Both the position numbers and the translations under genes were made by a program. From Onchidella celtica (Eukaryota; Mollusca; Gastropoda; Systellommatophora; Onchidiidae), in NCBI GenBank assembly GCA_963931925.1, contig OZ007571.1:11015474-11079473 (forward strand): a stretch of 64,000 nucleotides of DNA. Direction: 5' to 3'. The notes below the pieces were generated by a model. The model saw only the letters and a list, made by a program, of their open reading frames with translations. It was not told the origin of the DNA and made no database searches. Below are positions 1,955 to 62,060 of this stretch, piece after piece. Every line of letters begins with the position of its first letter. Positions within the stretch are counted from its first letter, which is position 1.

Positions 1955-2440
1955 CTAACATAAATAATCATTTATTCCTTCTTCTGATTTACTAGGACAC
2001 GTACGAATTGTACTATTTTACATAACTTTTAGATTGCAGATCCACGAGACGAGTGTATCAATCTGACTGTTCCTTCTCAGGTGGACGCTAAGTTTTAACC
2101 AACTGCGTGCTATCACATTTGCTTTGTCTAAAGAAAACGTGCTCCGACCGAACAAAGAAAAACTGGCAAGTTTAAGTGTTGATATTGTGCTATCAGTATT
2201 TCCCGGGTCTTTTCTAGGTGTTAAGTGGTCATTCATCATGGGGTCAGGTACGTGATGAAGCGGCTGGAAATAGTCTTGCTAAAACAGTAATGTTGATACG
2301 ATCTGTTTTCTATCTATGGGACAACTCGTGGATCTTACACTGTTGGGCTGGCAATAACATCAAATGGGACATGAACAATCTAGTCTTTGCGGCAAGAGAA
2401 CCCTGAACATCAAAGCTGAATTCATTAAACACGATCTTAC
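1955..2440 (-). other. Probable intron following the large exon
   Basis: On the minus strand this stretch begins at the donor GTAAGA (2440-2435) directly after the last coding base of the large exon. The reading frame runs on into it for about 43 codons before a stop at 2310, but the residues lose the Ser/Asn-rich character of the exon. I see nothing else here. The intron may end at 1955 or continue beyond the window. Confidence 0.5.
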
Positions 2441-5400
2441 CTTTTAATGTTCCTTCTTGTTGACTTTTACTGCCCTCTCCACTCAAGTTTGCTGTGTATC
2501 CACTGTAGCTCAATCTTGACCCAAATTCCGAATCCCCGCTGTTGTTTAATCTGTCCTTTTCACAAAACTCGTTGGTTCTCTTGTCACGGCGAAACACCGC
2601 ACTGTTGTTGCTGCTGTTGTTATACTTGCAGTTGTCATCAACAACTACTCCAAACGGAGGTTTCACACTGTCAGGGCTGAAATCAAAGTAATCACTACGA
2701 TCCACATTGGTCGCTGTAGCATCAGAATTAAATGAATTCAAACTGTCGTTGCTGAAGTTTTTCTCAGAAAAATTATCTTTGTACCCCGAGTTCACATATG
2801 AGCCGTTGTGACTTATATACAAATTGTGGTTATTTTCACATAACGATGACCGTTTGTCTGTGTAATTAAAGTAATCATATACACCATCTCCTGACATCCG
2901 CCGATTTGGCGTACTTCCACCCGAGGCTGAACTAGATACAGCTCTTTTGTTGGAACTGTGGTGGTCAGAAAAGTCATTTGATCTATTACTTCGCTCCAGC
3001 TCCACTGACCGACTACCACCTCTGGAACTACATGACATAGCTTCACTATAGGCACTGGAAGAGTCACTGATAAAGCTGCCCATTGGCAAGGGCTGGCTAT
3101 CAAACCCTGCATATAATTTACGACGTGGTCGACCTAAAGACGGCGGACCCCTTCTGAGGTCCTGCCAGTAGGGATCATCTTCAAAGAACGTGATGGATCC
3201 CGACTGGGGAGATCTGGGTGCCCCACTGGTATAGGAATGGCTCCTAGAGACGTCGGAGTCGGCAGATATTTGCCGCTGGACTAGCCGTGCTTCTGGCAAT
3301 GTGTTAGAATGTTTGGGAGTTTGTAGACCCCGAGACGGGGGTGTGGACTGGCTTCTTTTGTGATCATTTTTCGTACTGCCTTTTACTTCTCGCCGCTTGC
3401 TAGAAGACTTGGAGCTCCCTTTGTTGTTTCTACCACGACGTGCCTGACGCTGGGCCAGGTTGGGATAGCCATACTCCACTCCACACCCATAACAATGGAA
3501 CATGTTCAAAGGTCTCGACACTTTAGGCGACTTTCCTTTATTAGGCAAAGAGTTACTTTTGCCCGTGCTTCTTCTATTCCTAGAATTCTCCACAGGAATG
3601 ACTTCGGGTCGAGTGTAGGGAGATTTACGCGACCACTGGCGTATCTGTACTCGTGGTGAGGATCTGTGTATGTCATCACCAAACCGCGGGCTGCTCCCCG
3701 CAGAGCTGTCGCTCGCTCGAAAACTGGTGTTGTTGGCTGTATAAAAGCTGGTATCGCCTGAAATACTGTCGTAATTGTCAGAATATCTGTTAACGCTTAG
3801 CAAATGAGGCGCAGGCGGGGAGTAGTTCAAGTCTTTGCTCTCACGCCATTGTGGCTTTGTTTCCCTCATGGTCAGTACTGGCGACGGGCTTGCCTTCTCA
3901 GGCTCTGTACTCTGACAAGAGTAGAAGCTGCCAAAAGATGAGTTTAAACGTCCACTAGAAAAACTTGATCCACGAGGTCGTCGGCGCAACGAATCTGGAG
4001 TCATCTGGAATTGGGGAGAGCCCATATTTTCAGAATTGCTTAAGTTTTTATCATTCTGGCTATTCAAGATTGGAGACTGGTCTCCGAAGTCTGTGTCATC
4101 AATATCACACCTTAAATCTGAAATACTTGACGTTGCCAACATAAATGAGCGCCTTTTTATGGTATTTAATTGTTCTTCGCTGTCTTCTCTTGGTATCTGT
4201 GTTGGTCTGAGAGTATTTTGATCTGCTGCCGTTAGACTTCTCTCTTCCTCACGGAAGCATACTTTGCTGGAATTTTGCGAAATGTCATGCTGTTTGACGT
4301 TGAAACTTTCATCCTTCATCGGCATTTCCGAGGTTGAATATTGATTTCTAACAGCCATGAGTTCATTATAATCCTCTTCTAACAGCCAAACATCTGCAAT
4401 ACTTGTAGTTGCTAACCTAAACGATCGCCTTTTGACTGGGCTTCTAACAAGTTCCTCCGACAGTTTTGACGTATCATCAGGGGCCCAATCCGTTGTCGCT
4501 TCCTGCGCATCTCTTCCATTTATGTAGTGTGTTTGCGTTGGTTGATGTGAATTATCATAATTATCAATGTTTATATGTTTCTTCTCAGAATGACCCCCTG
4601 ATTCAGTTCGACTGACGATAGCTTTGGAATCAAACTCTCGCCCGCGCAAACCAATTTGATTGTACAAGTCTTCAACACTATGCATTCCTTCAGGGGCATT
4701 AGTTGGCGTACTGACCTCTCGTATATCCTCACTGTTGAGCTGCAAACGTTCCACAGAGTTGGTTAAATCCGACATGCTCGCGTATCCCTGTGTGGCCAAT
4801 CTCATGGAATTACGTTTCCATGGAGACTTGAATTCACAGGTCTGATCTGGGTACATTTCAGTGTTATCCAGCAGCTGGGGCACATTCCTCTGAATATTAT
4901 AGTTGCGGTCTGCACAGGATTTTGATGCTGCGTTTTGGATTGTGCTTTGTGGCGACATGAACTCGGACTTGTCTCTGCACATGCTCTTGTGATCTACATG
5001 CGCATCTCTCCGCACTGGAATTGTGTCTCTGATTATATGACTAGGATAGGCTGCCCTGGGTTCGGTGTTAGCTTCCTCCATTTTGTTGCTACCAACAGTT
5101 TTTATCCAACGCCGACGATTGATTTCATCACCTTTCCTCGTTGGCACTGTTCCCGTGTTATTGACACGTAGTTCTGATGTAAACTCGCGATCTGACCCAA
5201 TTCCACTATCGCTTCTGCGACTGCTGGCATTGCTAGAAGTGTGACGATGCGCGGGACTAACGGATGAGGTGACAGTACTGTTGTCACTATTAATGGCTTG
5301 GCGTATCTGAGTACTGTACATACTGCGTGCCTGCGTCAGATCATGCTGTCTTAGAATGTCTGTGGAACAGTGAGAATCACTGGGATTTGGCGACCACGAC

Positions 5401-6248
5401 CCTTCCTCTTCCGCATCAAAAGGTTTATAGAGAGGTGATTGGAATATCAGCTGTTGACTTTCAGTAAGATTTGGATCTATCGTAGAACTCTGTTCCTGAC
5501 AAGCGTCATGGAAGACATCACTGGAATCCGTTGAAGGGCACGGGGACAGTTCTGTTTCATCGCTGTAGTCACTGGTGTTTTTACTCGATGTACACTCAGG
5601 GCTGCGCACGGTATGTAAATCCGTACGAGACTCAACATGTCCTTGAATGCAAGAGCCAGGCTCGTTTTGGTACTGGTTGGGGGTGTCACTGGACACGCTG
5701 CTGGGGTTCCTGGCTAATGAAGGCGAGGAATTGTTTGAGTCACGAGCACGTACAAAGTGTTTAGGTCCAAGTCGTGGAGATGAAGTAAGTGGTCTTTTGT
5801 CCTCCACCCTCCGATTCCGAGGCTGCCATTTTGCTTTCTGAGTATCGCCCAACTCCGGACTTGGTCTGGTAACAGTTACAAATTCTGGAGAATCCGAGAT
5901 GAGAGAAGGACGGCCACGTGCCAGTTCAGATTGTGGCCTTTGTGGTCCTCCCAGATTCGGTGTTAAGCACCGCAAGGGCTGCTTACGTGATTGGGTTATA
6001 GGTTCCGCCGCTTCCGATTTAGGTCTACGAATCACTCGCAATGAACTGAACTTGTCACTTTGTCCCGATCGTCCTTTGGACTCCACCGAGGTATCTGATT
6101 CAATGGTGGCTAGTGGAGCCACAGGTGACCTATCTTCTGGTGATAATGGCACAGACGATGGAGTGACTGGACGAACTTTAGACGGGGGTGTGTATCCATG
6201 GATAGTACGCGACTTGACATAGTGCACAACCCGTCGACGCTCCATCAT
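2441..6248 (-). CDS. Large first coding exon of an unknown Ser-rich disordered protein
   Basis: I do not recognise this gene. The exon encodes about 1269 residues starting [14 protein letters not shown]. An in-frame TAA lies nine bases upstream of the ATG, which fixes the start. The exon ends in phase 1 at AAAG/GTAAGA, a strong donor, so the protein continues elsewhere. The sequence is rich in Ser, Asn, Arg, Asp and Pro with no globular, membrane or signal segment visible, and is likely disordered. A nonapeptide motif occurs three times: KRNSMRLAT (478-486), KRRSFRLAT (606-614) and KRRSFMLAT (698-706), each followed by a short T/S-S-I/Y-A/S-D/S-like tail. The first three residues plus Ser look like a basophilic kinase site. 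A lone CYGC pair sits at 919-922 before a basic stretch ([19 protein letters not shown]). Such long disordered exons are common in cytoskeletal or signalling scaffolds, but no role can be assigned. Exon call is strong, function unknown. Confidence 0.75.
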
Positions 6249-39447: not shown

Positions 39448-40300
39448 GAAAGCACGTCGACAAGTCAATGATCACATTGTGCCAGGAAGACGCAACACGT
39501 TAGACAGAATGTAACAGAGAGACAGGACAGAATGTAACAGAGAGTCAGGACAGAATGTAACAGAGGGACAGGACAGAATGTAACAGAGAGTCAGGACAGA
39601 ATGTAACAGAGGGACAGGACAGAATGTAACAGAGAGTCAGGACAGAATGTAACAGAGGGACAGGACAGAATGTAACAGAGGGACAGGACAGAATGTAACA
39701 GAGAGACAGGACAGAATGTAACAGAGAGACAGGACAGAATGTAACAGAAAGTCAAGACAGAATGTAACAGAAAGACAGGACAGAATGTAACAGAGGGACA
39801 AGACAGAATGTAACAGAGGGACAGGACAGAATGTAACAGAGAGACAAGACAGAATGTAACAGAAAGACAAGACAGAATGTAACAGAGAGACAGACAGAAT
39901 GTAACAGAGAGACAGGACAGAATGTAACAGAGAGACAGGACAGAATGTAACAGAGAGACAGGACAGAATGTAACAGAGAGACAGGACAGAATGTAACAGA
40001 TAGACAGGACAGAATGTAACAGAGAGACAGGACAGAATGTAACAGAGAGACAGGACAGAATGTAACAGAGAGACAGGACAGAATGTAACAGAGAGACAGG
40101 ACAGAATGTAACAGAGAGACAGACAGAATGTAACAGAGAGACAGGACATAATGTAACAGAGAGACAGGACAGAATGTAACAGAGAGACAGACAGAATGTA
40201 ACAGAGAGACAGACAGAATGTAACAGAGAGACAGACAGAATGTAACAGAGAGACAGGACAGAAGGAGACCATACCAAAAGCGCCCACCAACCATCCGCTC
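39448..40300. repeat. Dispersed repeat copy containing a 23-bp minisatellite
   Basis: Outer blocks GAAAGCACGTCGAC, TTGTGCCAGGA (left) and GACAGGACAGAAGGA, AGCGCCCACCAACCATCCGC (right) match the unexpanded copy at 7130-7247 in order. Between them, about 39503-40263, lie about 33 units of 23 bp with core CAGAATGTAACAGAG plus AGACAGGA or GGACAGGA. A minority are 22 bp and lack one G of the GG. Because 23 is not a multiple of three and no unit carries a stop on the minus strand, all three minus frames stay open for about 190-230 codons. These frames are not genes. Confidence 0.9.
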
Positions 40301-42318: not shown

Positions 42319-42329
42319 TGGTGACCCCG
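42319..42329 (+). other. Primer-binding site, tRNA-Trp type
   Basis: TGGTGACCCCG starts one base after the LTR end. It complements the 3' end of eukaryotic tRNA-Trp (...CGGGGTCACCA). The match breaks after 11 bases and resumes as TTTGAAC, so a few bases may have been lost. Confidence 0.75.
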
Positions 42330-42345
42330 TTTTGAACCGCTCATC

Positions 42346-44407
42346 ATGAATTCTGATTCTTCCTTCGATACAGTCAACGCTGTCTCGATTAAACTGCCAG
42401 AATTCTGGACAAAGTCACCGGAGGTCTGGTTCGCACGAGGAGAGGCCCAGTTCGGGACAAAGGGCATAACGAGTGATCAAACCAAATACGATTATGTCGT
42501 CAGTTCACTCAACGTCGATACAGCCGAAGAAATTCAAGCAACCCTGCTCAATCCTCTCCACCAACAGATCGGACTGGCCTGCAACGGTTTCTCGGTATCA
42601 CAGGTTTATGCCCAATATCGCTCAGGTTTTAGCTCCCCTTCATGAGCAAGCCAGCGGGAAAGGTAAAAAAATTGAGTGGGATCTGCGCTGCGAGAGGGCA
42701 TTTCAGGCAGCCAAGGAGGCCCTTAGCGGAGCGGTCTTACTTCATCATCCTCGTGCAGACGCTCCTACCAGCATTACTGTGGACGCTTCAGGCGTGGGAA
42801 TCGGTGCCCGGTTGGAACAGCTTCATGGACGGTTTTGGGTGCCTGTGGCGTTTTTCTCGCGCAAATTTTCTTCTGCTGAAACAAAATACAGTGCATTTGA
42901 TCGGGAACTTTTGGCAGCATATAGTGCTATCAAACACTTTCGTCATATTTTGGAAGGTCGGCCGTTCACATGCTACACTGACCACAAACCCCTTACTCTG
43001 GCGTTACATTCTTCGACAGACCGATCTCCACGTCAGACACGCCATTTGTCTTACATTGCGGAGTTCACGTCAGACATTCGTCACATCAAAGGCAAATTCA
43101 ACGTTGTTGCGGATGCACTTTCTCGCATCAATGCTATCTTCACGGATGGTGATCAGTCAATCAGAGATGGCTTACCTAGGGGCACATTCCTCGATTTATC
43201 TCAAGCACAGGTGGATTCCGGGGAGATGGCAGATTATGATACAGTCTGCACCGGTTTGGAGCTGCGTTATTTCACATTCGATGATGCCCGAGTGTTGTGT
43301 GATGTATCGACTGGCAATCCGAGACCTATTCTCCCTTCGACCTGGACTCTGGTAGCATTTGATAGTGTCCATAGCTTATCTCACCCAGGACAGAAGCCAA
43401 CTCAGAAGTCTATCGCGCAACGCTTTGTATGGCATGACATGAAGCGTCAGATACGACAGTGGTGCAAAGAGTGTCACGCCTGTCAGGCTTCCAAGATCTA
43501 TAGGCACACACAGGCGCCCCTCACTTCACGCCCGTTACCTGCTGCACGATTCAGGAGTCTCCACATTGACATTGTTGGTCCCTTGCCAGTCAGCCATGGT
43601 ATGTCATACCTCTTGACAATCATTGACAGGTTCACTAAATGGCCAGATGCCATTCCTTTACCAGACACTCAAGCCTCAACATGTGCATCGGCTCTCCTCC
43701 ATCACTGGGTCTCGAAGTATGGTGTTCCGGAAGACATCACAACGGACCGTGGTACTCAATTCACCTCACGCTTGTGGCAAGAGTTTAACAAGCTTTTAGG
43801 GATTGCCAGTCATAACACAACTGCCTATCACCCTCAAGCTAATGGCATGATTGAACGTGTGCATCGTCAGTTGAAGGCGTCTCTTAAGGCTCGGGTTGTT
43901 GGATCTGATTGGTACAATCAACTTCCCATTGTTCTTCTGGGCATTCGATCATCTTGGCGTGTGGACCCCGGATGCTCTCCAGCTGAGTTGGTGTATGGAA
44001 CAACACTTCGTCTTCCAGGAGAATTTTTTCAGACAAAGGACTCAACAGATTTTGTCCCAGATTCCATCTTCTTGAGACGTCTACAAGACACCATGCATAA
44101 GGTACGGCCAAGTCAAACCTCTTATCACGGCCACCAAAACAGCTATATTCCAAGCAACCTGTCCTCCACAGGTTTTGTCTATGTCCGATAGGACGCTCAC
44201 CGCAGTCCTCTTCAACGGCCATATGAGGGTCCGTAGAAAATCTTGGAAAAACATGAGAAATATTTTCTACTAGACATTCAAGGTCGCCACAACAAGATTT
44301 CCATAGACCGCCTCAAGCCAGCCTTTATTGGAAACAACGTGGAACCACTTACATCTACCACTCGGTCGGGTCGTATCACCCGTCGGCCGAGCCGGTACGA
44401 TGTCTAA
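42346..44407 (+). pseudogene. Decayed gag-pol with RT deletion
   Basis: The gag frame starts at ATG 42346 and is recognisable to about 42550. Coding similarity then jumps to the end of RT (GLQRFLG in one frame, YHRFMPNIAQ in another), so a large deletion and a second small one lie between about 42555 and 42600. From there the pol frame reads through RNase H (TVDASG; TDHKPLT; VADALSRI) and integrase. The latter has an HHCC zinc motif ending CKECHACQ, and the catalytic triad in HIDIVGPLP (43568-43570), TTDRGTQF (43745-43747) and NGMIERVH (43853-43855), with 35 residues between the last two. In-frame TAG codons at 44189-44191 and 44234-44236 break the integrase C-terminus (SRRSPLQRP-like then ILEKHEKYFLLDI) before the ancestral TAA at 44405-44407. 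Confidence 0.9.
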
Positions 44408-48832: not shown

Positions 48833-49507
<675 letters not shown>

Positions 49508-53724: not shown

Positions 53725-53729
53725 CCGTT

Positions 53730-54921
53730 TGTCACAAATCCCAGACTGGGAGATGTAATAGTTTATGACAGGACGACAATCACGAACAAACAAGTTTAAC
53801 ACTTAACAAAACAACCCATCAGACTCACAAATTTATTAAACATAATTATACATATAATAGCGCAATTACATACATTATATTATTGAAATGACTGCCGTAC
53901 AACGGCCTTATTCTCACACACACTCTCCCTCGGATCCACAATCCGGTAGTTACTCCTAAAGGCACTTCGGCCTCAGCCTCTCCCCTCAGGGTCTTAATAG
54001 TACATTAATGATTCACTGGCACCGCAGTCTCTCAATATCACCTTCCTATTGTCATACACCTTAGCACTCCCCTAGCACCTCAGCAGGGCAATAACACATT
54101 ATTATTTCCATAGCCATCAACATGGCAACAACATAATATCAGTTCACTAGCCTATCAACATGGCAACAATATAGTATCTCAGTCACTCTCATATCTACGT
54201 CCCTGTCCGTGACCTGACTGCCACGACCTTATGTGCCTCCACTGTCCTACACTGACAGCCTCACTTCTGGCCTATGTGTGGCCTCCGGCCCTATGCTGGC
54301 CTATCCCCTGTGCTCATCGAGGTGGCTCTGCGGCCCGTCCCCGACACCTACAAGAATAACATTACATTGGTATAATACCCTACCATTTCTATTCACTCCA
54401 CCTCTCCTTACAACCCATGAGCGTACACACACTAGTTCACCTTTCACTCACCACACATCTTACGGTAACACACTTCCATCGGAGTACACACTACTCACTC
54501 GCGCTACAAATCCATGAACTCACTTTCATCTATCGCTCATGGCGCACATTGCTATATCCAATATCAAGGACTTCCACATTCCTCACATATACTTATTCAC
54601 ATCATGGTAATAGACGAATATAATATAATACATCAATCATAATAATCAATCAACGTTCTACATACCAGTCATAACTGGAAAGACTCTCACTAGTCTTCTC
54701 GACTGCTTCCCCTTTATGTCCGCCCGATGGGCTTTTATTCACAGGTCCGATCCCTAGGACCTTCTAACTTGCAGTGATAGTAATACCGCGCTTTCGCCTC
54801 CTTCAGACCCCGCCCCCACTACTCACAACAGCACGCTTAACTTGCTGTCTACTGTGAGCCTTTCTTACTCTACACCCGCTCTGTAGCAATCCCCTTAATT
54901 GCACTCACTCCACTCGTGACA
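53730..54921 (-). repeat. 3' LTR (left copy), 1192 bp
   Basis: Terminal dinucleotides TG/CA with the longer inverted ends TGTCAC/GTGACA. Same length as the right copy, offset exactly 7134 bp, with no indel. In element orientation an AATAAAAG box (54738-54731) could be the core promoter, as in murine gammaretroviral LTRs, and AATAAA at 53837-53832 could be the poly(A) signal. That would imply a long R region. The antisense 60-95 codon frames in the LTR are not considered genes. Confidence 0.96.
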
Positions 54922-54942
54922 TCATCCCCCACCCCAAAAAAA
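54922..54942 (-). other. Polypurine tract
   Basis: On the minus strand a T-run, then GGGGTGGGGGATGA directly abuts the TGTCAC start of the 3' LTR. This is the expected place and composition for the plus-strand primer. Confidence 0.8.
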
Positions 54943-55277
54943 TTAATGCAATTAATTTCAAATCGCATCAAGATGACTGTCAACGAGTGAGCGTGAGCAA
55001 TACCTACACTAAAAAAACTGACCTAGCAGTTCCCCTAGTATATAGAATACCGAAATCAGGGGAAAATATGGGGATCAATATGGCCTGCAATATGCGTATA
55101 TGTGTCACATCATGAATAGCTAACTAACCACCATATCTAATACAGAATCAAAAACCATTCAACCTATCAACCATTCTTCATATCATATTTATAATGTCAA
55201 TATTTTAAAGTCGACTCATTCACACAGATCCTGTCAATGTTCCTGTCCTCCGATGTATAAGCTCCTGAAATCTTCCC

Positions 55278-58200
55278 CTAGGCTCGACTAAGGTAGTCGG
55301 CGATATGATTGCTGGTTCCTGGAATTGGTTGAATAACGAAGGTATACGGCTGCAAAGCCAATGCCCATCTAGACAAGCGTGGGCTGGACGAACGATTCTT
55401 CGACAAAAATGTCAGTGGCTTGTGGTCTGTCTGGATACAAAATTCTCGTCCCATGAGATAACGTCCTAGTTTCTGGACTGACCAGACAATGGCAAGACAC
55501 TCACGCTCTATCACAGAATACTTTCTTTCTCTCTGCAATAACTTCCTACTGACATAACATACAGGATGGAGACATTCGTTCTTCTCCTGTAGAAGACAAG
55601 CGCCGACACCAGAGTCCGACGCATCCGTTCTGAGGATAAAATTAGATCGAAAATCGGGTAATATCAGAATGGGTGACGATGATAATGCTGTCACCAAATT
55701 ATCAAATGATGTCTGACATTCAGACGTCCACTGGACCTTATCGGGTTGTCCCTTCTTAGTAAGGTCAGTAAGAGAAGATGACAAGGAGGAAAAATTTGGA
55801 ATGAACTTTCTGTAATAATTTAAAATTCCCACTAAGCTTCTGACTTGTTTCTTTGTTTTAGGGATTTGCAACCCTACTAACTTGTCAATTTTTGTTTCTT
55901 CAGGTCTCTGAACACCTCTACCCACGATATGTCCTAAGAATACTATCTCTGGACATGCCAAATCCATCTTTGCGGGTTTAGCAGTTAACCCAAAATGGCG
56001 TAATCGTTGAAAAATTACTGTTAGTGTCTGAATATGATCAGACCATGTCGACGTATGGCATGCTATATCATCAAAGAATGACACGACATTAGGTATGTCC
56101 TTCAACACTAATCTCATTAATCGTGCAAACGTCGCTGGTGCGTTTACCAACCCAAATGGCATGACCTTAAATTGGAATAATCCAATGGGCGTTTGGAACG
56201 CCGTGTATTGTTTAGACTCCTCAGTAAGCGGGATTTCCCAATACCCTTTCGTCAAATCTATCTTGGAAAACCACGTGGACCCGGCCAATGAAGCTATTAA
56301 TTCCTCCTGGAACGGGATAGGTTCCCTATCGCCTACCGTAATAGTGTTCAATCTTCGAAAATCAATACAGAACCGCACCGATCCATCAAGTTTTTTCACG
56401 AGGACGATGGGTGATGAATACGGCGATGTTGATGGTTCTATCACATCTAACTTCAACATTGACTCAACTTCCTTTATGACTCTATCTCTCGAAGAAAACG
56501 GCAACGGATACGGTCTAAGAAATACTGGCTTATCCGAAGTCAACTTTATTTGGTGCTCGATCACTGTAGTGCGACCCGGCAAATCCGTAACAACATCCGG
56601 AAATGACGCTAACAGGGTCTCAAGTTCCCTACTCCTTGAACTCGTAAGGTCAGGGTTAATTTTTACGTCCCTGTAACCTTGTGTCGCAGTTAACTCCGGC
56701 AATTGAATTTGCAACTCTTGCTGCGCCTCGGTGTCGCTTACGTCACAGTCCGACTGGTCTACGACCCCCGTACAAGCAGTAGAGAAGACAGTCTCCTCTG
56801 GTCTTGTCTGTGCACACAGATACTGTGGTCTCTCATAAAATCTCTGTAGCATATTAACATGGAAAACCTTACTCGTTCCATCAATGTGGATAGCGTAATC
56901 TACCTTTGAAACAACTCGCTCAATAACATAAGGGCCTTTCCATGTCATCAATAACTTATTATGGTCCGTAGGTAACAACAGCAGAACCTTGTCTCCTGGC
57001 TTAAAAATTCTCAGTTTGGACCCTCTATCTTTATAGTCTTTTGCTCTTTTCGAAGCGATACCAGAAGCTTCTTGTGCTATAGTGCGCGCTGAAGATAATC
57101 TTTCTCTTAAATCAACAAGGTACTGAAACACCGAAATCTGATCATCGTCTCCCGATGATGGTGACGTCATCATGTCCCGAAGAACATCAGTTGGGCCCCT
57201 AGGACTACGACCGTACATCATTTCGAACGGCGAGAATCCCGTTGACTCCTGCCGTACCTCTCTGTACGCGAATAACACTGCAGGGATATATCTATCCCAA
57301 TCTTTAGGGCGATCAGCAGCTACCTTACGCAGCATCGACTTCAACGTCGAGTTCAATCTCTCGCACATGCCATTAGCCTGCGGATGATAAGGGGTGGTAG
57401 TGATGGGTTGTATACTGAATAAGCGGAACAATTCCTTCATCATCTGCGACGTAAATTGCGCGCCCCTATCAGACAGAATTTGCTCTGGTATTCCTACCCT
57501 AGCGAAAATTGCAAACAACGCTTCCGCGACTGCCTCAGACGTTATGGTCCGCAGAGGAACCGCCTCTGGCCATCTCGTAGCATTACATATGACCGTTAAG
57601 AAAAATCGATTCCCCCTATCGGTCGCTGGGTGAATGGGGCCAACAAGGTCTATCGAGACCTTTTTAAACGGTTCCGAGACCGTGGGGATCTTCTGAAGAG
57701 GGGCCTGGGGTGTACGACCCTTATGCGTCGTCTTTTGGCACGCACTGCACGTCTTACAATAGACCTGCACATCTCTGTGGATCGATGGCCAGTAAAAATT
57801 TTTAAGGACCCTTTCCTTGGTTCTAGCTATCCCCATATGACCCGCTAATGGGACATCATGTGCCAAGTGCAATACTGTTGCGATCAGCAACGCTGGCACA
57901 ACGACCTGCTTTAAAATGGAGGACACCGTTACATACTTACGGAACAGAATGCCCGCCTGAACAATAAAGGAGGACGACCCGTTCTTATATCTCCTCGTTT
58001 TCTCGGTTCGCGCTTCCCCAAAACATGGGTTTAATGATGGGTCCTCCCTTTGTAATCTCGCCAAGCGCTCTGGCGTGATATCTAGGTTGACCGCTGGCGT
58101 AGCCAAAGGTCTAATCTTATCTTTATCGGCTACCCGTCGGCGTGTTTCGACCGCGGCGCAAAAGTCAATACCTTTTGATTGCGACCATGCTTGCACGTTC

Positions 58201-59870
58201 TCATCGGAAGGGGAAACTACCCGTGATACATTCCCAATGATGAGCTGGGCGCCTGGAAAACAACCAACGACTGCTTCGACTTCCCCGCTAAGGAAAGGTG
58301 TATCTATCATTATTTTTGCCATGGGTAATTTCTCAATGGCCCCCGAAAATTGGATGCACGGGACAGTCTCACCTGTAAGCTGTGAATCCCGAATGCAGTC
58401 TCTATGCACTCCCACAACGGTAGATCCCGTATCTCGTAAAACCGAGACCGGTTCGTCCCCAACAAACCCCGGATAAACCCTAAGACCACCTCCTGTATGA
58501 CATGAATTTATAACGGGGATCTTTCTCCCACAAGGTAAAACACCGGAAGATAATAACTTCTCACAACTGGGACACTTAGAATACTGTCCGCCTCCGTTGT
58601 CCGATGTAACACACGCAGCCGCATGATGAAATTTATTTGGGGAACATGGACTGGAGCTACTGTCCACGTTCGCCGCTATCCTACCTGCAGGGCAGTTCAC
58701 GGTGATGTGATCTGCTCTTCCGCAGTTCCAACACTTCGCGGCCCTACACTCGCGTGAAAAGTGACCCACGCGTCCGCAAGTCCAACACTCCGCTCCCTGT
58801 GCTGTACTAGGCCTGGGTCCCCGTGACCCATCGCGACCGGAACTACAGTCCCTATGCCGTCGGTCATCGGCAAAGGTCACAACTCGCCCCCGGCCATTAC
58901 CGCGACCTAGCCCTCCTGCTCGGTCAAACTTACCGGATCCATATGCCGGTGATTGGTGATAGCCCCTACGCTGCCCCTGGGCTTGCCCGCTATAGGCACC
59001 ACGCTGACGCGACCTGTCCCTAAGTCCTGCCGGCGACCCCTCGACAACGGCGACGTACCCCGCATCTTGGACGTACGCCCTGGCGACTGGTTTGGACGGA
59101 TGCGCCGTACGGTATGCCTCCGCCAACTTAGACGCCTCCTGCACCGTCGCGGGTTCGTTCTCTTTCAGGAAAGCCACCAGATCTTTGTGGCACGACGCGT
59201 ACAGCTGGTCACGGATCATTAGATCTTTCAGTTTAGCGAAATCCGTGCCCACATGCGCCAAGTCTACCCAGTTCGCGAAATACTCAGTTAGTCTCGCGAC
59301 GAAGGCAGCAAAGTCCTCCCTGGTATTTGCACGTGCTCGCCTAAACTGCTCCCGGAAGTATTCCTCGGTACGCGCAAATCGGCGAAGCAGCAAAGCCTTC
59401 AGCTTATCGTAATCTTGTACGTCTTCGCGCTGTAGCTCTTTAAAGTATGTTAACGCTCGCCCCTGCAATAGCGATGCCAGGTACGTGGCCCATAATTCCT
59501 TATTTTCCCCCCATTGCAATTGTGCGTTCAGTTCGAACCTGTAAAGGAAGGCGTCTATGTCGTCCTTCCGGTCGTCGAACGTAGGGAGCTTAATCCTAAC
59601 GCCACCTTTATTGTGTACCTGCCGCTCAACCGTTTCCGCTGGCGTATTCTTCTTGAGTTCTAACTCCGCAATCTTTACTTGCGCCTCTATCTCCTTTAAC
59701 CTTATCTCCTGCTCCCTTTCCTTAACCTGTCTCTCCTGCTCCTCTCGCTCTCTATCCTTAGCACGCTCATCGCGCATTTCTGCCTGCTGTTCTTTAATCC
59801 AGCCGCGTAGCTCGTCTCCCTCCAGGCCAAGTTCCTTACCCAACTTCATTAATTGTTGGAGTTCCGCCAT
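55278..59870 (-). CDS. gag-pol: Gag-Pol polyprotein, gag-PR-INT-RT-RH order
   Basis: One 1530-residue frame, no frameshift. Residues about 5-75 form a charged helix, probably coiled coil. Gag capsid follows, with a SCAN-like segment at about 170-255 (YFREQFRRAR ... LMIRDQLYASC ... EASKLAEAYR). Two CCHC knuckles lie at 362-375 and 380-393. Protease has DTGS at 480-483. Integrase has an HHCC zinc motif ending CSAC (708-711), the triad D741, D801, E837 (DX35E) and a GPY motif at 979-981. Reverse transcriptase comes after it, with FFDD at 1265-1268 in place of the usual YxDD. RNase H ends the protein (RTDASDSG; TDHKPLTFL; NHIADYLSRA). The order places integrase before RT, as in Gmr1-clade elements. 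It would make virus-like particles, copy its RNA and integrate the DNA. No envelope gene follows. All catalytic residues I checked are present. Confidence 0.96.
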   Translation of the reverse strand: MAELQQLMKLGKELGLEGDELRGWIKEQQAEMRDERAKDREREEQERQVKEREQEIRLKEIEAQVKIAELELKKNTPAETVERQVHNKGGVRIKLPTFDDRKDDIDAFLYRFELNAQLQWGENKELWATYLASLLQGRALTYFKELQREDVQDYDKLKALLLRRFARTEEYFREQFRRARANTREDFAAFVARLTEYFANWVDLAHVGTDFAKLKDLMIRDQLYASCHKDLVAFLKENEPATVQEASKLAEAYRTAHPSKPVARAYVQDAGYVAVVEGSPAGLRDRSRQRGAYSGQAQGQRRGYHQSPAYGSGKFDRAGGLGRGNGRGRVVTFADDRRHRDCSSGRDGSRGPRPSTAQGAECWTCGRVGHFSRECRAAKCWNCGRADHITVNCPAGRIAANVDSSSSPCSPNKFHHAAACVTSDNGGGQYSKCPSCEKLLSSGVLPCGRKIPVINSCHTGGGLRVYPGFVGDEPVSVLRDTGSTVVGVHRDCIRDSQLTGETVPCIQFSGAIEKLPMAKIMIDTPFLSGEVEAVVGCFPGAQLIIGNVSRVVSPSDENVQAWSQSKGIDFCAAVETRRRVADKDKIRPLATPAVNLDITPERLARLQREDPSLNPCFGEARTEKTRRYKNGSSSFIVQAGILFRKYVTVSSILKQVVVPALLIATVLHLAHDVPLAGHMGIARTKERVLKNFYWPSIHRDVQVYCKTCSACQKTTHKGRTPQAPLQKIPTVSEPFKKVSIDLVGPIHPATDRGNRFFLTVICNATRWPEAVPLRTITSEAVAEALFAIFARVGIPEQILSDRGAQFTSQMMKELFRLFSIQPITTTPYHPQANGMCERLNSTLKSMLRKVAADRPKDWDRYIPAVLFAYREVRQESTGFSPFEMMYGRSPRGPTDVLRDMMTSPSSGDDDQISVFQYLVDLRERLSSARTIAQEASGIASKRAKDYKDRGSKLRIFKPGDKVLLLLPTDHNKLLMTWKGPYVIERVVSKVDYAIHIDGTSKVFHVNMLQRFYERPQYLCAQTRPEETVFSTACTGVVDQSDCDVSDTEAQQELQIQLPELTATQGYRDVKINPDLTSSRSRELETLLASFPDVVTDLPGRTTVIEHQIKLTSDKPVFLRPYPLPFSSRDRVIKEVESMLKLDVIEPSTSPYSSPIVLVKKLDGSVRFCIDFRRLNTITVGDREPIPFQEELIASLAGSTWFSKIDLTKGYWEIPLTEESKQYTAFQTPIGLFQFKVMPFGLVNAPATFARLMRLVLKDIPNVVSFFDDIACHTSTWSDHIQTLTVIFQRLRHFGLTAKPAKMDLACPEIVFLGHIVGRGVQRPEETKIDKLVGLQIPKTKKQVRSLVGILNYYRKFIPNFSSLSSSLTDLTKKGQPDKVQWTSECQTSFDNLVTALSSSPILILPDFRSNFILRTDASDSGVGACLLQEKNECLHPVCYVSRKLLQRERKYSVIERECLAIVWSVQKLGRYLMGREFCIQTDHKPLTFLSKNRSSSPRLSRWALALQPYTFVIQPIPGTSNHIADYLSRA

Positions 59871-60802
59871 TTCACGGATCTATGGTTATGGTATCTATTA
59901 TGAGAACGACCAACCTGTCGGTATGATCACTAACCAGAGACCTGAAATTATGTCACTATAATAACAACACCCACTTGTCTCAAATACAATTCAGAAATTT
60001 ACGTACTTCCTAACTAATTCTATATTTATAAAATGTATAGCACTATTAATAATAAAAAAGAGTAGAAAAGACAAGAATAAGGAAATTCAGTAGAAAGACC
60101 ACAAGTACGTCAAGGACAACGAACCAGACTAGGACAAAGCTTCTACAAAAGAAAATATAATGGAAAAAAATGCAACCTAACTACGCCGATTACACAACAC
60201 GGTACGAACAAGAACAGAGTCTGAAAAAAAAGAACGATCTACAGAAAGGTAGGAGAGGGACAAGAGAAACGTCTTCCTAAAACAACGAGGAAGATAGAAC
60301 GCTACAATCTAAACAAAAATACAGGTCCCTACAGAACTGTTCACTGTGATGAACGAAGTTCCTAGATTAGCCCACCTCCCGAAGAGGACAAACTACGCTC
60401 ACCACAGCAAACCCGCGCCACCGCCCGTATAACCTATAACGACAACAAAAACAGCAAAAACAGGGAAAAAGACAGATCAAAGGGACAGCCCCCAATCCAG
60501 GGTACAAAACTTCAGCTTCACTTAACTTTTGAAATTTTGAGTAAAACTTCTCCCTTTAATCGGAGCTCTGGCTGCTCGTCTCCTCAGGCTGCACGCACAC
60601 ACTCTGGAAAGTTTAAATACACATTAATACCTATTCATAGCAATACATGCATCAATACATATTATTATTCATAAACATACATAAATCATATCATGAAATT
60701 TCCATTCATCCGACGAACAAAGACAACAGCATGAATTCCTAGCACAACAGAAAAACAACTAGATATAACGAATACACAATGTCAAAATGACCACAGGTAA
60801 AC
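59871..60802 (-). other. Untranslated leader of the Gmr1-like element
   Basis: About 0.93 kb between the primer-site array and the gag ATG. A/purine-rich on the plus strand, with no recognisable protein. It could hold packaging and translation-initiation signals, but none can be pointed to. Confidence 0.6.
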
Positions 60803-60862
60803 AGGACGAGCCCCCAGTGTCACAACGGACGAGCCCCCAGTGTCACAACGGACGAGCCCCCA
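60803..60862 (-). other. Triplicated tRNA-Pro-type primer-binding site
   Basis: In element orientation the LTR end TTTGTGACA is followed by C and then TGGGGGCTCGTCCG (60862-60849). This is the well-known primer site complementary to tRNA-Pro, as used by murine leukaemia virus. The site recurs 23 bp on (60839-60826) and again (60816, ending TCC then TG). The units are joined by TTGTGACAC, which equals the last eight LTR bases plus the spacer. The period is therefore PBS plus an LTR-end fragment. Confidence 0.9.
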
Positions 60863-60863
60863 G

Positions 60864-62055
60864 TGTCACAAATCCCAGACTGGGAGATGTAATAGTTTAT
60901 GACAGGACGACAATCACGAACAAACAAGTTTAACACTTAACAAAACAACCCATCAGACTCACAAATTTATTAAACATAATTATACATATAATAGCGCAAT
61001 TACATACATTATATTATTGAAATGACTGCCGTACAACGGCCTTATTCTCACACACACTCTCCCTCGGATCCACAATCCGGTAGTTACTCCTAAAGGCACT
61101 TCGGCCTCAGCCTCTCCCCTCAGGGTCTTAATAGTACATTAATGATTCACTGGCACCGCAGTCTCTCAATATCACCTTCCTATTGTCATACACCTTAGCA
61201 CTCCCCTAGCACCTCAGCAGGGCAATAACACATTATTATTTCCATAGCCATCAACATGGCAACAACATAATATCAGTTCACTAGCCTATCAACATGGCAA
61301 CAATATAGTATCTCAGTCACTCTCATATCTACGTCCCTGTCCGTGACCTGACTGCCACGACCTTATGTGCCTCCACTGTCCTACACTGACAGCCTCACTT
61401 CTGGCCTATGTGTGGCCTCCGGCCCTATGCTGGCCTATCCCCTGTGCTCATCGAGGTGGCTCTGCGGCCCGTCCCCGACACCTACAAGAATAACATTACA
61501 TTGGTATAATACCCTACCATTTCTATTCACTCCACCTCTCCTTACAACCCATGAGCGTACACACACTAGTTCACCTTTCACTCACCACACATCTTACGGT
61601 AACACACTTCCATCGGAGTACACACTACTCACTCGCGCTACAAATCCATGAACTCACTTTCATCTATCGCTCATGGCGCACATTGCTATATCCAATATCA
61701 AGGACTTCCACATTCCTCACATATACTTATTCACATCATGGTAATAGACGAATATAATATAATACATCAATCATAATAATCAATCAACGTTCTACATACC
61801 AGTCATAACTGGAAAGACTCTCACTAGTCTTCTCGACTGCTTCCCCTTTATGTCCGCCCGATGGGCTTTTATTCACAGGTCCGATCCCTAGGACCTTCTA
61901 ACTTGCAGTGATAGTAATACCGCGCTTTCGCCTCCTTCAGACCCCGCCCCCACTACTCACAACAGCACGCTTAACTTGCTGTCTACTGTGAGCCTTTCTT
62001 ACTCTACACCCGCTCTGTAGCAATCCCCTTAATTGCACTCACTCCACTCGTGACA
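60864..62055 (-). repeat. 5' LTR (right copy), 1192 bp
   Basis: Identical by eye to the left copy. In element orientation it begins TGTCACGAGTGG at 62055 and ends TTTGTGACA at 60864. The AATAAAAG box is at 61872-61865 and the AATAAA hexamer at 60971-60966. Confidence 0.96.
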
Positions 62056-62060
62056 CCGTT

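Follow-up and report, generated by a model that had tools for sequence, protein, structure and literature searches.

A probable Gmr1-like Ty3/gypsy retrotransposon with integrase upstream of reverse transcriptase in the genome of the gastropod Onchidella celtica

The open reading frame of 1530 codons at 55278-59870 on the reverse strand of the window (the whole stretch of 64,000 nucleotides analysed here) is proposed to belong to one copy, inserted recently, of a Gmr1-like Ty3/gypsy LTR retrotransposon that is present in multiple copies in the genome of a gastropod, a reading to which we give a probability of about 0.92. The element fits the Gmr1-like clade because of its integrase-first order, the grouping of its reverse transcriptase (RT) and integrase (IN) on one side of the trees and its SCAN-type Gag, and these features, together with an RT of Ty3/gypsy type, support the original prediction, which had reached the same identification from the order of domains. 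The Gmr1-like clade of the Ty3/gypsy elements (Metaviridae) was reportedly described by Goodwin and Poulter in 2002. With the present element, a clade whose first known members came from deuterostomes gains a gastropod family that has young copies.

The whole element spans 53730-62055, with the Gag-Pol frame inside it, and its parts lie on the reverse strand. The 5' LTR (60864-62055) and the 3' LTR (53730-54921; TGTCAC...GTGACA) measure 1192 bp each and do not differ at any position, and the pair is flanked by a 5-bp target-site duplication, CCGTT, at 53725-53729 on one side and 62056-62060 on the other, to which no strand applies. Read on the sense strand, the 13-nt primer-binding site TGGGGGCTCGTCC, which we take to be complementary to the tRNA-Pro 3' end, begins one base past the 5' LTR, and a G-rich purine stretch, read as the polypurine tract region, lies just before the 3' LTR at 54922-54942. 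The LTRs, primer site, polypurine tract and target duplication are those of an LTR retrotransposon, the identity of the primer tRNA being putative. The coding frame stops directly after RNase H, the last domain, and the interval from there to the 3' LTR contains no open reading frame of at least 120 aa. Scans of the window with Rfam (at the gathering threshold) and ARAGORN gave no match.

The frame runs from Gag through protease, integrase and RT to RNase H with no internal stop, and a Pfam scan of four pieces of it (E up to 0.01) returned its matches in that sequence; the single-frame order from protease to RNase H first read from the motifs is thus confirmed, and the residues then assigned (D480, D741, D801, E837, GPY 979 and FFDD 1265-1268) keep their positions on re-reading. 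Gag carries a SCAN-type C-terminal capsid domain (59100-59363; aa 170-257; E = 2.5e-8, 34 bits against a Pfam cut-off of 27), followed by nucleocapsid zinc knuckles at 58686-58793, one found as a Pfam zf-CCHC match (E = 4.7e-7) and the second by eye, with nucleocapsid structures matching inside aa 354-397. For the protease piece Pfam gave no family (E up to 0.01), and the assignment is based on the DTG motif and on the alignment of the piece to 113 of the 120 listed relatives. The motif, RDTGS from aa 479 (DTGS, aa 480-483, 58422-58433), has a final serine where most relatives read DTGC or DSGC (RDTGC in 48/120, RDSGC in 48/120, with no pattern match in 16/120). The integrase comprises an H2C2 zinc-binding domain (57726-57899; Integrase_H2C2, E = 2.8e-19), a catalytic core (57381-57674; rve, E = 1e-12) with D741 and D801 inside the match and E837 just past it, and a C-terminal GPY/SH3-like region (56838-56972) recognised by the GPY motif at aa 979 and a weak match to SH3_Tf2-1 (7e-4; 20 bits, below the cut-off of 30). 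The RT core, with its FFDD motif, lies at 55923-56399 (RVT_1, E = 1.9e-30) and RNase H at 55344-55730 (RT_RNaseH, 5.4e-37; RT_RNaseH_2, 5.1e-35).

Among solved structures, the RT piece was matched by phmmer to 4ol8 (1.8e-78), which is near-identical to Ty3, and to Ty3 itself (7q5b, 6.8e-78), and of the named solved proteins it is Ty3 that best matches both RT and IN. These matches, and a tree in which the window element stands with Ty3/gypsy rows, identify the RT as being of Ty3/gypsy type. Placing integrase before RT is a trait shared with Ty1/copia, but the RT piece matches RVT_1 and the RNase H models and no other RT polymerase model in Pfam, where RVT_2 is presumably the copia-type model; the RT is not of Ty1/copia type.

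The same order characterises the element's relatives. An integrase match precedes the RT match in every one of the 120 listed closest relatives (the best 120 of 2872), the nearest among the matches listed being P0004 (65% identity) and P0005 (62%). The organism is named for 24 of these 120 and, by hand count, 17 are molluscan (eight genera: Ylistrum, Littorina, Pinctada, Haliotis, Argopecten, Mizuhopecten, Pecten and Crassostrea) and seven are from echinoderms or a hemichordate (Patiria, Strongylocentrotus, Lytechinus, Diadema and Glandiceps). The order, sought among molluscs, is therefore present in the public sequences of eight of their genera; the Littorina, Haliotis, Crassostrea, Pinctada and scallop proteins share it and are 47-51% identical across the complete IN-RT piece, and many integrase-first mollusc proteins carry SCAN, as the window element does. 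In contrast, the 120 listed relatives of another Ty3/gypsy fragment in the window all match RT/RNase H first and integrase after it, and in 58 the match spans the whole RT piece. Thirteen related loci were found in prokaryote records, where L001 and L002 are integrase-first and eight (L003-L006 and L008-L011) place RT/RNase H before integrase, the tally leaving out L007, L012 and L013. L001-L011 are Ty3/gypsy elements within records labelled bacterial, and those in two named isolates, Thalassococcus profundi (L004) and Alcanivorax profundi (L011), are near-identical; such elements in prokaryote records are most likely contaminating eukaryote DNA. A scan of viral_contigs with the RT alignment gave 18 pattern-matching stretches, none of them a relative.

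A SCAN domain is listed by Pfam for 73 of the 120 best-listed homologues (hand count), and the 47 others comprise 22 proteins shorter than 1200 aa, from which Gag may be missing, and 25 longer ones (hand count). Among the contaminant loci, the divergent integrase-first L002 scores 37.8 bits, above the cut-off, and L001 scores 20.6 bits, below it; SCAN was not found upstream of RT in the RT-first loci L004, L008 and L009 or in L007, the stretches available for L004 and L009 being short. One review describes the SCAN domain as similar to the C-terminal portion of the Gag of Gmr1-like elements (PMC4592553). The results are consistent with an integrase-first order carried along with a type of Gag that is thought to be the source of vertebrate SCAN domains.

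Of the 120 integrase-first proteins, 30 entered the trees, together with 15 of the 120 relatives of the other element; the outgroup was limited to those relatives, Ty3 and the contaminant loci. In the RT-RNase H tree (58 rows, with L007, whose order was not determined, counted among the RT-first rows), the 33 integrase-first rows lie on one side of a starred branch with support of 100/95. The window element joins P0004 and P0005 (99/97) inside a nine-member group (100/98) with Littorina among its members, and it groups with the integrase-first elements of sea urchin, starfish and hemichordate. The integrase tree (56 rows, P0236 and L007 being absent) recovers the same split at 90/57, unstarred and with long branches flagged; in quick integrase trees the split was starred when Ty3 and L008 were removed (100) and when L006 and L002 were removed (97). 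These sequence groupings are consistent with a single origin of the integrase-first order, in trees that are unrooted as to order and whose rows include no labelled Gmr1, Mag, CsRn1, Athila or Ty1/copia sequence.

Membership of Gmr1 is accordingly judged here by features and by the integrase-first sea urchin, starfish and hemichordate relatives, with no labelled Gmr1 element in the comparison, which leaves some room for a separate lineage outside Gmr1 that gained the integrase-first order independently. Molluscan elements may also sit under other clade names (MolGy) in PMC6238403. We nevertheless regard such an independent gain as improbable, since the mollusc, sea urchin, starfish and hemichordate integrase-first elements share one side of the RT-tree branch, and a SCAN-type Gag, ascribed to Gmr1-like elements in the review text (PMC4592553), is common to many of them.

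The Gmr1-like assignment is also in keeping with published descriptions, as far as the text available from each source goes. The clade shares with the window element a Ty3/gypsy RT, an integrase upstream of RT and a SCAN-type Gag (PMC4592553), the window element differing in its gastropod host; the single Gag-Pol frame is seen here in the window element and the one to three primer-site units in its family. The crustacean elements GyRex4, Gychoro2, GyMaja1 and GyLiva4 were called the first Gmr1-like elements in protostomes (PMC3587641), and the annelid family LGF3 was placed in Gmr1 (PMC8220671); the comparison with these protostome elements is one of descriptions, their Gmr1 placement being that of their authors. 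Gmr1 is counted among five clades occurring in several phyla (PMC8556966), and the same paper states that the Gmr1 element of the annelid that carries LGF3 falls in a clade absent from its own annelid analysis. About 200 Gmr1-like copies are reported in a frog (PMC4131045). The background section of PMC6238403 gives the Gmr1 domain order, and its mollusc clade table, in the text available, has no Gmr1 entry. In a search of the literature, mostly outside subscription journals, none of the titles listed had Gmr1-like elements of molluscs as its subject. Because members from decapods and an annelid have been published, the remark that the clade was first described from deuterostomes no longer marks rarity and, with vertebrate members and integrase-first relatives in eight mollusc genera added, the element is itself unsurprising. 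It can be surmised that Gmr1-like elements may be a widespread and under-named part of molluscan genomes.

In the host genome, an assembly of 1.14 Gb in 43 contigs, the LTR piece was found at 40 scored places with 99-100% identity. Copy numbers are lower bounds because 40 of the 2257 first-look candidates were scored; 30 of these became loci, a number that includes both LTRs of the window element. The 28 remaining loci match the window LTR at 97.4-98.7% identity over its full length, L032 being partial. Script rules sorted the loci, at least 30 in number, into seven 5' LTRs, eight 3' LTRs, 12 solo-like LTRs, each with a 5-bp duplication, and three unsorted, among them L041 with one primer unit. 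All six LTR pairs compared, the window's included, are 99.9-100% identical and flanked by 5-bp duplications. The LTRs of one pair stand 12.9 kb apart, and that element therefore probably contains a further insert. Together, these findings point to recent activity of the family and to removal of copies through LTR recombination, and the element itself would appear to be active at present.

Integrase lies upstream of RT in all seven other host copies that were read, of which L049 has one frame shift in integrase and L051 an RT broken near its end. The suggestion that an ordinary Ty3/gypsy element was rearranged locally, in this copy alone, had been raised as a way for the identification to fail; it is rejected as scarcely credible, since the order is common to the 120 listed homologues and to these seven copies and the coding sequence is one open frame. 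A domesticated Gag-Pol host gene, which the long open frame might bring to mind, is rejected just as firmly by the identical LTRs, the target duplication, the primer site, the further copies and the solo LTRs.

In two copies, L054 (C12) and L055 (C3), the same part of the integrase core is missing, as is nearly the same stretch across the integrase end and the RT start. The L054 element has identical LTRs (L036/L037), and the shortened form therefore seems to have moved, which suggests mobilisation in trans. By eye, the left flanks of two solo-like LTRs, L028 (C13) and L031 (C18), resemble the family's LTR (on the other strand) and internal sequence, and the family therefore seems to insert into itself.

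For the Gmr1-like retrotransposon proposed here, the following cycle can be envisaged. RNA started in the 5' LTR would be translated as one Gag-Pol protein, whose Gag, with its SCAN-type capsid domain and zinc knuckles, would form particles, and the protease would release integrase and then RT-RNase H. A tRNA, putatively tRNA-Pro from its 3' end, would prime DNA synthesis beside the 5' LTR, and integrase would insert the resulting DNA, leaving the 5-bp target duplication.

The predicted priming region is itself repeated. In the window, TRF delimits three 23-bp units at 60804-60871 (reverse strand), each containing the last six LTR bases and the 13-nt primer site. Across 11 copies, the window's included, there is one unit in six, two in two and three in three, the units following one another at exact 23-bp steps, when up to two mismatches per unit are allowed; a strict pattern gives one unit for both L058 and L048, for which the tolerant count gives three and two. 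The unit number could have been changed by misaligned strand transfer or by ordinary slippage. We tentatively raise the idea, which we hold to be somewhat less probable than its converse, that the arrays are a record of strand transfers misaligned in the course of reverse transcription and give the element more than one place at which to prime. A literature search for duplicated or repeated primer-binding sites gave no match for the combined terms, and the broader matches listed were mostly unrelated; among them was one HIV-1 primer-selection paper with the term 'multiple PBS'. An array of primer sites that varies between copies could serve the study of strand-transfer errors.

Elsewhere in the window, the longest other open reading frame (2310-6248, reverse strand, 1312 codons) matched nothing in Pfam (E up to 0.01), and the protein collection contains two relatives of it, one from Aplysia californica (over 32% of the frame) and one from Biomphalaria glabrata (38%). 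It probably represents a host-gene exon, and its matches, to these two molluscs only, bear out the lophotrochozoan host that had been suggested as possible. The fragment of another Ty3/gypsy element used above as a contrast lies at 42325-44191 on the forward strand; its Gag start (Pfam DUF7041) overlaps, in a different frame, an open reading frame in which RNase H precedes integrase, as is usual, and which has no match to the RT core, and the fragment's named mollusc relatives are Plakobranchus and Elysia. Many microsatellites and short tandem arrays were delimited by TRF, at 39503-40263, 48833-49474 and elsewhere, including one array in which a 23-bp unit recurs 33 times and another of 160 CTAT units.
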